Shown here: positions 11,974 through 24,633 of the stretch, one piece after another | Layout: every line of letters starts with the position of its first letter | Numbering within the stretch: the stretch's first letter is position 1 | Source of the DNA: a virus | Length of the DNA: 39,824 nt | Strand: one strand, 5' to 3' | IMG/VR virus record: IMGVR_UViG_3300045999_009337 | Coordinates: 1 to 39,824 of that record | Made by a program: the position numbers and the translations under genes | Notes under the pieces: model-generated | The model's input: the letters and a program-made list of their open reading frames with translations, nothing else | Told to the model about the DNA's origin: nothing | The model's database searches: none

Positions 11974-12171
11974 TTAGTCGTCATCTTCCTCTTCATCGTC
12001 GGGATCGCTGATGGGCACCAGCACTTCGACGCCCTGGGCCAGCATGGTGACAAAACCGCCGAGGATTTCGGGGTTTTGGGGTGATTTGAATACGAAGGTG
12101 GCGTGCGTGAGGCCGTCCTCAGCGTCGATTTCGATGTGGACGCAGCCGCCGTTAACTGTTTGGATAGCCAT
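11974..12171 (-). CDS. Small acidic protein, unknown
   Basis: A 65-residue protein (MAIQTVNGGCVHIEIDAEDG) ending in an almost purely acidic tail (SDPDDEEEDDD). Its start shares one base with the stop region of the structural gene upstream, so it is translated in that unit. It could be a small virion or assembly factor. I do not recognise the family. Confidence 0.65.
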   Translation of the reverse strand: MAIQTVNGGCVHIEIDAEDGLTHATFVFKSPQNPEILGGFVTMLAQGVEVLVPISDPDDEEEDDD

Positions 12172-15390: not shown

Positions 15391-15489
15391 GGGATGGTTT
15401 CCCTTGGGACCCCCATAGTGTAGCACAGTGGAAGCCGTACCGCGAGGGATAGTGTCACACATTGTAATATTACAGAATGTGACAGCTGC

Positions 15490-20324: not shown

Positions 20325-20432
20325 GCCCCACTGGGGCAACGTCTGTAACAGTAACACAGGTTTGACAGCCTGGCTACCATGAGAAAACGCCCTGCTGCCA
20401 AAAGGCTTCAGGGCGTAGTACCTATTCTCATG
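20325..20432. promoter_or_regulatory. Palindrome-rich divergent regulatory region (candidate operator or origin)
   Basis: Between the minus ssDNA-binding gene and the plus primase gene lie a 13-base palindrome GCCCCACTGGGGC (20325-20337) and a long dyad. In the dyad CATGAGAA (20378-20385) pairs with TTCTCATG (20425-20432), and inside it ACGCCCTG (20387-20394) pairs with CAGGGCGT (20409-20416). A TTGACA lies at 20362-20367 without a clear -10 at normal spacing. Both replication units start here, so shared control is likely. Confidence 0.55.
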
Positions 20433-20444
20433 TGAGACTCTAGC

Positions 20445-22808
20445 ATGTCGCAAAGTAAGACGCAAGAGCTGCTCGCCTTTGTGCGTCAGTTACCTGTGGG
20501 GCCGGCTTACGCGCCCATCTATGCCAAGGGGCAGGTCTTCGGGAAGCACGATGACGTTTCCAAAGGCAAGGCGCCCCACGAGGATTCGCACCACCGGGTG
20601 ATGAGTCCTGCTGACGTTGCGCTGCTGATTGAGCGCAAGCCGGAGGTGTTCAAGGCTGTGGGCCTCTTCACCGGGATTCGCAGCGGCGGTCTCGTGATTC
20701 TTGATGTGGACGCAAACCTGTCCACGCTGCGGAAAAAGTGGGGCAACACGCTGGACGGCGCTCCAGTGGTGACGTCGACCAAGAAAAACGCCGCGAAATT
20801 TATCTTCCGGGTGCCGGAGGAGCAGCGCTCCAAGGTCAAGGGGATCAGCGGAAGGGTCACAGGAGCGGGCTACGAGGTCCTGTGGGGGATGCAGGGCGTT
20901 ATTGCGGGTGAATACCCCGGCAGTAGCGACGGCAAGGCTCCTAGCGGCTTCTACGCGCTCCAGGGAGACCTATCGGCGGTGCCTGAGGCGCCGGAGTGGC
21001 TGCTGGCGGAGATGCGGGCTGCGAAGGAGGCTGACGCGCCAGTGCAGGGACTCATCAAAAACCGCAAGGGGCTGGATTTTGCGGGGCGGACTGAAGACGA
21101 GCTGTTTTGGCTTGTGAAGGACTGCCTTTCGGTGTTGCCACACCTTGGGCGCGGTACAGAGGACTACTGGTGGTCTATCGGCGCGATGATCGCCGAGGAG
21201 CTTCCTAACGAAAAAGGTCTGACGCTTTGGTCGGCCTGGAGTTCGGAGGATCCGGCTTTTGAGAAGGATTGGGCAGATGGCAACCCCTGTGAGGCGAAGT
21301 GGCCTCACATCCTTAAGAGGGCTGGGCGTCCCGGTAACAAAGGGCTCGGGTCGCTGATCTACCTCGCCGATGAGTACGACCCCCAGCGCCAGCGCTTTGG
21401 TGATCTCAGCCGTGAAACTCTCCAGCAACTGGAGAAAGACCGCGCTCTGAAGTTTGAGCAGGTCTACATCGACGGCAAAGACCTGCTGGAACAAGCCCAG
21501 AAGATTGAGGAGGAGATTGAAAATCCGGCGCTCCAGGATCAGGCGAAGCATGTCTTGGCGCTGAGGGCTGGTCGTCGGGAAGGAGCTTTGGCAATCGACA
21601 AGCTCCTGATGATGAACATGCTCTACGGCGATTCAGCGGGGCTCCAGCCAGTGTCTGTCGATCAGCTTGATGACTCGCAGCTTGATGAGTACCTCGTGCC
21701 AGGGCTGCTGCCTAAGCCTTGGGTGCTGTTGCTGCACGCCGATGGTGGTACCGGCAAGACGGCTGCCTGTCAGACGCTGGCTAAGCACCTGAGCCAAGGC
21801 ATTGGCTTTGACGTGTACGGCGAACCAGTGCCGGTGCAGAAATCGAAGGTGCTGTGGCTGAACGGGGACCAGAACCCCAAGACGCTCAAAAAGCAGTTCA
21901 AGCGCATGGGCGTGGACTTCGGCGTGGACATCGTTGGCGAATGGGATATGGCTTGGTACCGCCGCTTCTGCAAGATGCAGCAGGCGAACCAGTACGACCT
22001 CGTGGTCATTGATTCGCTGGATGGCTGCAACGACTCAAACCCTTACGAGGAGAACCGCAGGGAGTACGCCAAGCCCTTGAAGATGCTGGCCAAGCGGAAT
22101 GGGCGCGACTTTCCCGCTTGCACCTTCATCGTCATTCACCACAACACCAAGACCGGCACGTTCCGGGGTACCAGCGCTATCCGGGCGGCTGTGGATGAGA
22201 CCTGGAACATGCGCAAGCTCAGCGAGGAGGAGCTGGTGCAGCGTGGGCTACGTCCCAGCAGCCGCGTCATCAGCATCGAAAAGTCCAGGGGCGACCGTGA
22301 AGGGCTCCAGATGGTCTTCACGCTCAACCGGGACTTCACCTACAGCATCAACCACCTGCCGCCTCGGATCGAGTACCCCACGGCCCAGCAGTACGTGGTG
22401 GATGTGCTGCGGGTCATGCGCAAGCACAAGGAGCGGGCGTGGTCTCGGATGGACCTCGATCAGTGCTCTGAGCTGGACGGTGGCACACGCTCCAACAGGT
22501 GGGCTCTGGAAAGCCTGTTGGCGCAGGGGCTGATTGAAGAGGTTGGCCGTATGAGCCAAGGCAGAGGACGTCCTGCTGTGTACTACAAGGCGGTTCTGGA
22601 TGGCAGCGTTCCAGGGGGTTCCTTATATACACAAAAAATTAACGGCAAAAAAGAAGAAACCCTGTCTGGGACTGGGATTGCAAATGACGTTAAATGCCGT
22701 TCGGAGGACCTAGCGGCAAAAATAGAGAGTCCTGGTCCTGTAGTACAGAAGGTGTCGGAGGCTGAGCTGGCACGTCTTCAGGACTACGCCACGGACATCT
22801 GGAGCTGA
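20445..22808 (+). CDS. Primase-polymerase / helicase (AEP-type primase fused to RepA-like ATPase)
   Basis: A 787-residue replication protein. The N-terminal part has GGLVILDVDAN near residues 80-90 and APVVTSTKKNAAKFIFRVPE near 105-125, the Asp-x-Asp and His/Arg-type regions of bifunctional Prim-Pol domains. A linker (PrimC-like, with EDYWWSIGAMIAEELPNEKG) follows. The ATPase domain has Walker A GGTGKT near 433 and Walker B YDLVVIDSLDGC near 515, as in RepA/DnaB-like hexameric helicases. The C-terminal part holds a winged-helix-like segment (MDLDQCSELDGGTRSNRWAL). It opens DNA and lays primers for the family A polymerase at 29501-31327. It is the first gene of the plus-strand block. Confidence 0.85.
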   Translation: MSQSKTQELLAFVRQLPVGPAYAPIYAKGQVFGKHDDVSKGKAPHEDSHHRVMSPADVALLIERKPEVFKAVGLFTGIRSGGLVILDVDANLSTLRKKWGNTLDGAPVVTSTKKNAAKFIFRVPEEQRSKVKGISGRVTGAGYEVLWGMQGVIAGEYPGSSDGKAPSGFYALQGDLSAVPEAPEWLLAEMRAAKEADAPVQGLIKNRKGLDFAGRTEDELFWLVKDCLSVLPHLGRGTEDYWWSIGAMIAEELPNEKGLTLWSAWSSEDPAFEKDWADGNPCEAKWPHILKRAGRPGNKGLGSLIYLADEYDPQRQRFGDLSRETLQQLEKDRALKFEQVYIDGKDLLEQAQKIEEEIENPALQDQAKHVLALRAGRREGALAIDKLLMMNMLYGDSAGLQPVSVDQLDDSQLDEYLVPGLLPKPWVLLLHADGGTGKTAACQTLAKHLSQGIGFDVYGEPVPVQKSKVLWLNGDQNPKTLKKQFKRMGVDFGVDIVGEWDMAWYRRFCKMQQANQYDLVVIDSLDGCNDSNPYEENRREYAKPLKMLAKRNGRDFPACTFIVIHHNTKTGTFRGTSAIRAAVDETWNMRKLSEEELVQRGLRPSSRVISIEKSRGDREGLQMVFTLNRDFTYSINHLPPRIEYPTAQQYVVDVLRVMRKHKERAWSRMDLDQCSELDGGTRSNRWALESLLAQGLIEEVGRMSQGRGRPAVYYKAVLDGSVPGGSLYTQKINGKKEETLSGTGIANDVKCRSEDLAAKIESPGPVVQKVSEAELARLQDYATDIWS

Positions 22809-23717: not shown

Positions 23718-24059
23718 ATGACGTTCCAGACGCCTAACTTTTTCCTAGGGCTCATGCGGGTTGTCGCTTGGGCTTTTTGGAGGGATCCCGTGGCTAAGCC
23801 TGAACCGCCCCAGCCGAAGCGTCCCAGGAAGCCGACGCTGGGCTACACCGTCGGGGACATTCCCTACGAGCTGCTGGCCGTGGTGCGGGTGTCCTGGTAC
23901 CGCAAGGGCATGGCCTACGAGGTCGAGGAGTACCAGATCGAGGAATCCGACGATGCGGTGCCCCAGTTCCACTACATCGTTGGCACGGCGCTCAAACAGG
24001 GCGCGGACGTGTGCGTACTGACCCAGTACGAGCCTGCCGCGCTTGGTGTGCCAGAGTAG
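23718..24059 (+). CDS. Small protein, unknown
   Basis: A 113-residue protein starting directly after the previous stop. It has a hydrophobic N terminus (FFLGLMRVVAWAFW), a basic Pro-rich linker (KPEPPQPKRPRKPT) and a C-terminal domain (YELLAVVRVSWYRKGMAYEV). It could be membrane-associated at its N terminus. It ends 32 bases before the structured RNA segment. No family is recognised. Confidence 0.6.
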   Translation: MTFQTPNFFLGLMRVVAWAFWRDPVAKPEPPQPKRPRKPTLGYTVGDIPYELLAVVRVSWYRKGMAYEVEEYQIEESDDAVPQFHYIVGTALKQGADVCVLTQYEPAALGVPE

Positions 24060-24091
24060 AAGGGTTCCCGCTCTGCTTTGGCATCGGGCTA

Positions 24092-24372
24092 CAGGGGACA
24101 ACCCTGGACTGAGGTTGTCTTAAACGAAGTTCACCCATAAAAGTGTGCTCGCCCTGTCCCCTAATTAGGTGGCCGGTGGCTGGTCCTCACGCGGTGCCAG
24201 CCTGTTGCCCGCAGCCGGCCTCTACGGGACCGCCTAGTTCCTCCAAAAAGGGACTAGGCGCAAAACCTAGCCAGCACCAGCCACCTCACGCGGATGTAAC
24301 GAAATGCGACAGCCCGGCCTTGCGGTTGGGCTGTTTGTGTGCAACACTAAGGGCAAGCCCGGAGAGCCGGGC
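24092..24372 (+). ncRNA. Candidate structured non-coding RNA (about 280 bases)
   Basis: The 334-base gap 24060-24393 has no credible gene but is packed with pairing segments. A 16-pair stem with one mismatch and one bulge joins 24167-24183 (AGGTGGCCGGTGGCTGG) to 24271-24286. Inside it is a hairpin of CGCCTAGT/ACTAGGCG (24231-24238/24253-24260). Downstream are an 11-pair hairpin 24309-24334 followed by TTTGTGT and a tetraloop hairpin GCCCGG-AGAG-CCGGGC (24357-24372). Upstream, the segment AGGGGACAACC (24093-24103) can pair in three exclusive ways: with 24102-24106, 24113-24119 or 24155-24162. This suggests a switching or attenuating leader, or a separate small RNA. The strand is assumed from the flanking plus genes. 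Confidence 0.6.
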
Positions 24373-24393
24373 GGCCCTGTTACTGAATTACAA

Positions 24394-24633
24394 ATGGATC
24401 AATTTCACACTCCAGTCGAAAACACCAAGCTCAGTCCGTGGTTTTTTGCGGTCAACTGGGGCGTCCTCACGCTCCAGCAGAAGATCGCCGACATGGAAGC
24501 TATGGGCATGAACCCGATCTACGACATTGCACAGCTCGAAAAGCTCCAGGACTTGGAGCAGTTCCTCAAGATGAGCTGGGATGCCTGGCTGGATCGGATG
24601 GAAACCATCAAAACTGCTCAGGAGGTCAAGTGA
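24394..24633 (+). CDS. Small protein, unknown
   Basis: A 79-residue protein from ATG 24394 (MDQFHTPVENTKLSPWFFAV), continuing NWGVLTLQQKIADMEAMGMN and ending in a helical, charged part. An upstream in-frame start at 24304 would place coding sequence across two hairpins and is less likely. Its end overlaps the next gene by four bases, so they are coupled. No family is recognised. Confidence 0.6.
   Translation: MDQFHTPVENTKLSPWFFAVNWGVLTLQQKIADMEAMGMNPIYDIAQLEKLQDLEQFLKMSWDAWLDRMETIKTAQEVK

Follow-up and report, generated by a model that had tools for sequence, protein, structure and literature searches.

The window analysed in this study, the whole stretch of DNA examined, is a 39.8-kb record of an uncultured virus. 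It encodes a family A DNA polymerase (29501), a dCTP deaminase (27846) and an endolysin (33016), and its structural and packaging genes include TerL (13652), the portal (10493) and tail fibres. The host is likely a cyanobacterium, because most matches of the virion protein encoded at 12171 are to T4-like Synechococcus phages, in addition to the Puniceispirillum phage HMO-2011. A series of rightward genes headed by a primase/helicase gene ends with p113 (stop codon at 24059), and the next gene, represented in relatives by p109 homologues, starts at ATG 24394. The 334 bases between them had been described, in a sequence-only reading, as a gene-free and densely structured non-coding stretch. Homology places the p109 start exactly where that reading let the stretch end; an alternative start at 24304 was rejected, since homologous frames break there. 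No conserved protein reads across the gap, a 122-aa frame having one marginal match only (E 0.047). On the + strand the gap folds at -146.6 kcal/mol versus -127.2 +/- 4.9 kcal/mol for dinucleotide shuffles (z -3.97) and beats 100 of 100 of them; the fold of the - strand is weaker (z -2.26). The density of structure was thus confirmed, as was the impression that no known RNA class is present: Rfam 15 gave no family above its gathering cut-off, the best weak match scoring 15.1 bits where the cut-off is 80. Matches at relaxed thresholds, including a 13.5-bit cobalamin match, were discarded as noise. A DNA search of isolate phages with the whole region found nothing.

Table 1. Features of the array region and its flanking genes in the window.
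Feature	Position	Strand	Remarks
Primase/helicase gene	20445..22808	+	AAA_25 and PriCT_2 domains; PHROG primase; head of the rightward genes running into the array
Upstream gene p113	23718..24059	+	final protein gene ahead of the array
Hairpin L	24064..24089	+	GTTCCCGCTCTGC-TTTG-GCATCGGGC; first array element, right after the p113 stop
Element E2	24091..24157	+	outer stem ACAGGG/CCCTGT (24091-24096 x 24152-24157)
E2 inner hairpin	24098-24103 x 24113-24118	+	ACAACC/GGTTGT, within the outer stem
Element E1	24167..24271	+	pseudoknotted RNA, ~105 nt; covariation in 88 distinct sequences
E1 P1	24171-24176 x 24215-24220	+	covarying helix
E1 P2 hairpin	24178-24183 x 24197-24202	+	covarying helix
E1 P3 (pseudoknot)	24209-24214 x 24222-24227	+	strands flank the 3' strand of P1
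E1 P4 hairpin	about 24232-24259	+	covarying helix
Intrinsic-terminator-like hairpin	24309..24334	+	ACAGCCCGGCC-TTGC-GGTTGGGCTGT, then TTTGTGTG; from fold and terminator scan
Sigma70-type promoter of the next operon	24320..24348	+	66 distinct homologous sequences
-35 box TTGCGG	24320-24325	+	within loop and 3' arm of the terminator hairpin; spacer of 17 nt
Extended -10 TGTGC-AACACT	24338-24348	+	A in place of T at the first -10 position
5'-UTR hairpin	24351..24377	+	GGGC..GCCCGG-AGAG-CCGGGC..GCCC; about the predicted p109 transcription start
Downstream gene (p109 homologues)	24394..24633	+	79 aa

The organization of the gap became apparent by comparison with relatives. Homologues of p113 were found in at least 169 viral stretches, of which 80 loci were kept, and the primase as query gave 63 related loci; a scan with the neighbouring protein p217 found no relatives. 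Across the primase and p113 loci the gap is modular: some relatives share the entire arrangement of the window, some share no more than the final ~100 nt ahead of the gene, and many have additional small genes at about 24090 to 24165. A block homologous to 24167-24271 recurs. The gap is a composite of five parts, namely hairpin L, element E2, element E1, a terminator-like hairpin with a -35 box in its loop, and a 5'-UTR hairpin (Table 1). The position corresponding to 24090-24165 is a hotspot in relatives, where cargo genes of up to about 2 kb lie between L/E2 and E1. In six loci a tiny membrane-type ORF (like IPPVVVFGLTWLLGMLVVTVYLTQWAT) fills the gap, in one of them (L110) together with E1.

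E1 is the best supported of these parts. Its strands follow the order P1-P2-P2'-P3-P1'-P3'-P4, and its tail is conserved as A-N3-UAGC. At least 119 viral stretches contained a pattern built on the P2 loop; a minority of these were chance matches in coding sequence, recognised by the absent fold. In an alignment of 60 diverse copies, 94.5% of the cells of P1, P2 and P3 were paired, with a covariation score of 0.325 versus 0.100 +/- 0.009 for shuffled and at most 0.043 for slid partners. P4 was added in an extended alignment of 92 rows (88 distinct), where 91.5% of the cells were paired and both sides had changed in 21 of 26 pairs; the fit of this alignment to a model of P1, P2 and P4 works in favour of these three helices, and P3 was no part of that model. 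Its score was 0.423 versus 0.144 +/- 0.007 (shuffled) and at most 0.077 (slid partners), in controls that ignore phylogeny. A structure-free scan covered every column pair of the extended alignment, widened by 20 nt on the upstream and 30 nt on the downstream side (178 columns), and all eight pairs that combined more than 85% pairing with frequent double changes fell in P1, P2, P3 or P4. Moreover, a covariance model without the pseudoknot (R1) recovered four divergent copies absent from the alignment at E 7e-8 to 7e-11. P2 and P4 often contain G-U pairs (GU 25 and UG 23 at single pairs), which favours an RNA over a DNA-level structure. Judged by this covariation, E1 is a genuine new structured RNA family.

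The same comparison bears on two further proposals for the gap. A 16-pair long-range stem (24167-24183 with 24271-24286) did not hold up. It is a minimum-energy pairing of this one sequence alone; in relatives the mean run of complementarity is 6.77 versus 6.74 with swapped partners, and the stem is incompatible with the covarying helices P1 and P2. For 24093-24103, three mutually exclusive stems had been put forward. The pairing with 24113-24118 stands, with a probability of 0.91-1.00, whereas the other two are populated at about 0.001 or less; the outer stem of E2, which is backed by homologues, is compatible with the surviving pairing. Within the window the pairs of E2 have probabilities of 0.85-1.00. 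E2 is represented by 13 distinct sequences, which share a conserved TTAAACG...TCnCCCATAAA, and outside the window and one relative (L065) its stems are mostly GAGGGG/CCCCTC and TGCAGC/GCTGCA. Since E2 falls into only two sequence groups, its support is weaker than that of E1. Dozens of relatives have hairpin L as well; its core stays the same and its loop varies.

The structured pieces that precede E1 differ among relatives and comprise L, E2, a further hairpin (E3) and the tRNA-like cloverleaves T and T2. Wherever these occur together, L comes first and E1 last; the array of the window is L-E2-E1. E3 (GAGCCCAAG..CTTGGGCC) lies between L and E1 in at least five relatives, and its variants keep the pairing. 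The T element combines a normal acceptor and T arm with a long anticodon stem and a short predicted anticodon loop, and neither ARAGORN nor Rfam called a tRNA in T elements. Such tRNA-like cloverleaves stand just upstream of E1 in five loci and could be tRNA mimics or decoys. Across the 92 E1 loci, ARAGORN gave only two ordinary tRNAs. A T2-type element (L142:4921-4992), about 100 nt before E1, was called by ARAGORN as tRNA-Leu(CAA).

Downstream of E1, the two hairpins noted before, one of 11 pairs and T-rich at its end and one reading GCCCGG-AGAG-CCGGGC, are present and recur in relatives. The terminator-like hairpin is kept there with changed sequence and often a better T run. The run of the window is weak (TTTGTGTG), several relatives having stronger ones such as TTTTTG; in L091, for example, the hairpin reads CAGCCCGG-TTTGACG-CCGGGCTG-TTTTTG. 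The terminator scan gave no excess over shuffles. Overlapping this hairpin is a promoter which agrees with the sigma70 type in its -35 (TTGaca), spacer (17 +/- 1 nt), -10 (TAtaaT) and conservation in homologues. Among the 66 homologous sequences, the first three -35 positions at this spacing are T in 64, T in 60 and G in 64, and the -10 starts with AA and ends with T in all 66. The -10 is extended in nearly all of them, with the consensus TGTGYAACnCT. One and the same hairpin thus seems, from these alignments, to end the upstream operon and to house the promoter of the next. An extended -10 box TGTGYWACnnTA is also found at 20342 (+) and at 15461, 15427 and 17673 (-) of the window, mostly upstream of genes. 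The same box lies at other intergenic sites of related phages, marine relatives having TGTGCTACAGTA, and it is probably the general promoter of the phage. Just before the ATG, a hairpin of changing sequence is present in nearly all relatives.

With the R1 model, 18 of 23 phage records contained one strong E1 copy; one further record (G015) had a weak local match only, and in the other four, all relatives of the window, E1 was absent. Among 84,980 species genomes of bacteria and archaea, a pattern scan revealed no real E1, its two matches being due to chance and without the fold, and isolate phages searched with E1 alone gave chance matches only. The p84 and virion proteins of the window were not found in phages that carry E1 in other contexts, and E1 is therefore common to different lineages. 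These phages are aquatic and cyanophage-like, and their hosts are probably cyanobacteria. E1 was observed in at least four gene contexts. In the first it lies ahead of the p109 promoter; in the second it follows a late protein gene and precedes a small gene for a putative membrane protein, itself ahead of an endolysin; in the third it precedes a sigma70 factor (Pfam Sigma70_r2); and in the fourth it has an early gene on one side and a convergent HNH gene on the other. In the last type no co-oriented gene follows, and convergent genes take its place. In eight loci, a phage-encoded sigma70-family gene starts roughly 10-30 nt after E1. The stop codon of a co-strand ORF lies within 25 nt before E1 in 59 of 91 loci, versus 11% for random positions, with a spacing that varies widely, up to 22 nt, in all frames (18/18/23) and with all three stop codons. 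What precedes E1 in some loci is no gene, but hairpin L or a tRNA-like element.

Sequence comparison of this kind yields the structure and conservation of E1, its restriction to phages in the collections searched, its copy number, the order of the array and the overlap of terminator and promoter. The reading that we favour, with roughly even confidence, is that the gap would be an array of small structured RNA genes (L, E2, E1) closing the early primase operon at its 3' end, with overlapping terminator and promoter and with E1 as a stand-alone ncRNA. Rightward transcription through primase, p217 and p113 would copy the array, stop at the putative intrinsic terminator (24309-24334) and restart at about 24355 for p109. 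E1 would be a phage-borne ncRNA that functions as a discrete molecule, most probably in trans or as a 3'-end product of processing, and would not serve as a sensing leader for the following gene. Transcription of the array from the primase operon, processing or release of E1 and its action in trans are what we infer from this arrangement. The close fit of E1 behind stop codons also suits its main rival, in which E1 would act in cis for the preceding gene, as a 3'-UTR or intercistronic element whose knot blocks 3' exonucleases or sets the mRNA end and so protects early messages. In most loci E1 starts at most 22 nt after a co-oriented stop codon, between convergent genes only the upstream gene can own it, and in the window it precedes the terminator; a cis role could also explain why E1 stands alone before a sigma-factor or small putative membrane-protein gene in some phages. 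However, part of the loci have hairpin L or a tRNA-like element upstream instead of a gene, and one would expect a generic stabiliser to recur at the ends of several operons, whereas E1 is present in one copy per genome. We regard this role as rather unlikely.

Other functions appear less probable. As a signal for processive antitermination, similar to HK022 put, E1 would modify RNA polymerase during its synthesis so that some polymerases pass the terminator at 24309-24334. Its place just upstream of that hairpin in the p113-p109 context and its single copy per genome would fit such a control point, but relatives without E1 retain the terminator-promoter, and where a convergent gene follows in other phages readthrough would yield antisense RNA, which makes this role improbable. 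A self-cleaving ribozyme of a new class, trimming the mRNA or tRNA-like element ahead of it, would be consistent with the compact pseudoknot, with invariant unpaired bases (the U after P1 and the tail A-N3-UA) and with the place of E1 in some phages, directly 3' to tRNA-like elements, comparable to theta ribozymes at tRNA 3' ends (PMC10879173). No catalytic signature was identified in E1, no covarying helix follows P4 and the strand order is not HDV-like, so that cleavage is more doubtful still. An HDV-like ribozyme as such, considered on account of a UCCUC loop and a 7-bp P1, is excluded by the strand order. The sequence-only reading had favoured an attenuator or riboswitch for the downstream gene while also listing a phage small RNA, and the latter option is the one in line with our reading. 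A strong fold does precede a terminator-like hairpin, but two of the three alternative stems are essentially unpopulated and the long stem is not conserved. Moreover, the p109 promoter lies past nearly all of the structure, and therefore E1 and E2 cannot be the 5' leader of p109 in transcripts from it; E1 also occurs without a co-oriented gene after it. Lacking both a 5'-leader position and conserved, mutually exclusive stems, this explanation is largely refuted and very unlikely. Even less credence is due to a DNA-level structure, with cargo genes gained and lost around a recombination or origin site. The gene insertions that relatives carry between L and E1 would fit it, but the orientation is fixed relative to the preceding gene and the G-U pairs favour RNA. 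A recoding signal for readthrough or frameshifting in the upstream gene, suggested by a pseudoknot shortly behind a stop codon, is hardly conceivable, being contradicted by the variable spacing, the use of all frames and the three different stop codons.

Within the favoured reading of E1 as a stand-alone RNA, it is tempting to speculate, albeit with low confidence, that aquatic and probably cyanobacterial phages deploy a modular array including anticodon-less tRNA mimics and capped by E1, which might act in trans on the translation or RNA-processing machinery of the host or against tRNA-targeting defence. E1 occurs about once per genome in aquatic phages of different gene content and is absent from Rfam. 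Single-copy, mobile RNAs under such structural constraint make good candidates for the phage functions that annotation centred on proteins overlooks, and an array with tRNA-like elements offers a direct handle on the role of ncRNAs in phage tRNA islands.

Structured ncRNAs of phages are known from GOLLD and ROOL, which are often located near tRNA islands (PMC12286853). Like E1 they are phage-encoded and structured; however, they are multi-domain RNAs of several hundred nt, whereas E1 comprises about 105 nt with another fold, and the Rfam search gave no match of either family to E1. In HDV-like and theta ribozymes the strand order is P1-P2-P3-P1'-P4-P2', a nested double pseudoknot. Theta ribozymes are minimal HDV-like ribozymes of phages at the 3' ends of tRNAs (PMC10879173), and share with E1 that they are small pseudoknotted RNAs beside tRNA or tRNA-like genes. 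They occur mostly in gut phages, whereas E1 is found in aquatic cyanophage-like phages, differs in strand order and has no 3' strand of P2 after P4. The put RNA acts in early-gene transcription, at the start of transcripts. HK022 put is a structured phage RNA that acts at the operon level (PMC9378689); in contrast, E1 lies behind stop codons and also before convergent genes. In cyanophages, the structured RNAs manA, wcaG, glnA and PhotoRC-II have been described (PMC2864571, PMC9964418), but these are cis-regulatory leaders contained in Rfam and had no match in the gap. In summary, orphan phage ncRNAs are already a known kind, to which E1 adds a new family in an unusual modular array.
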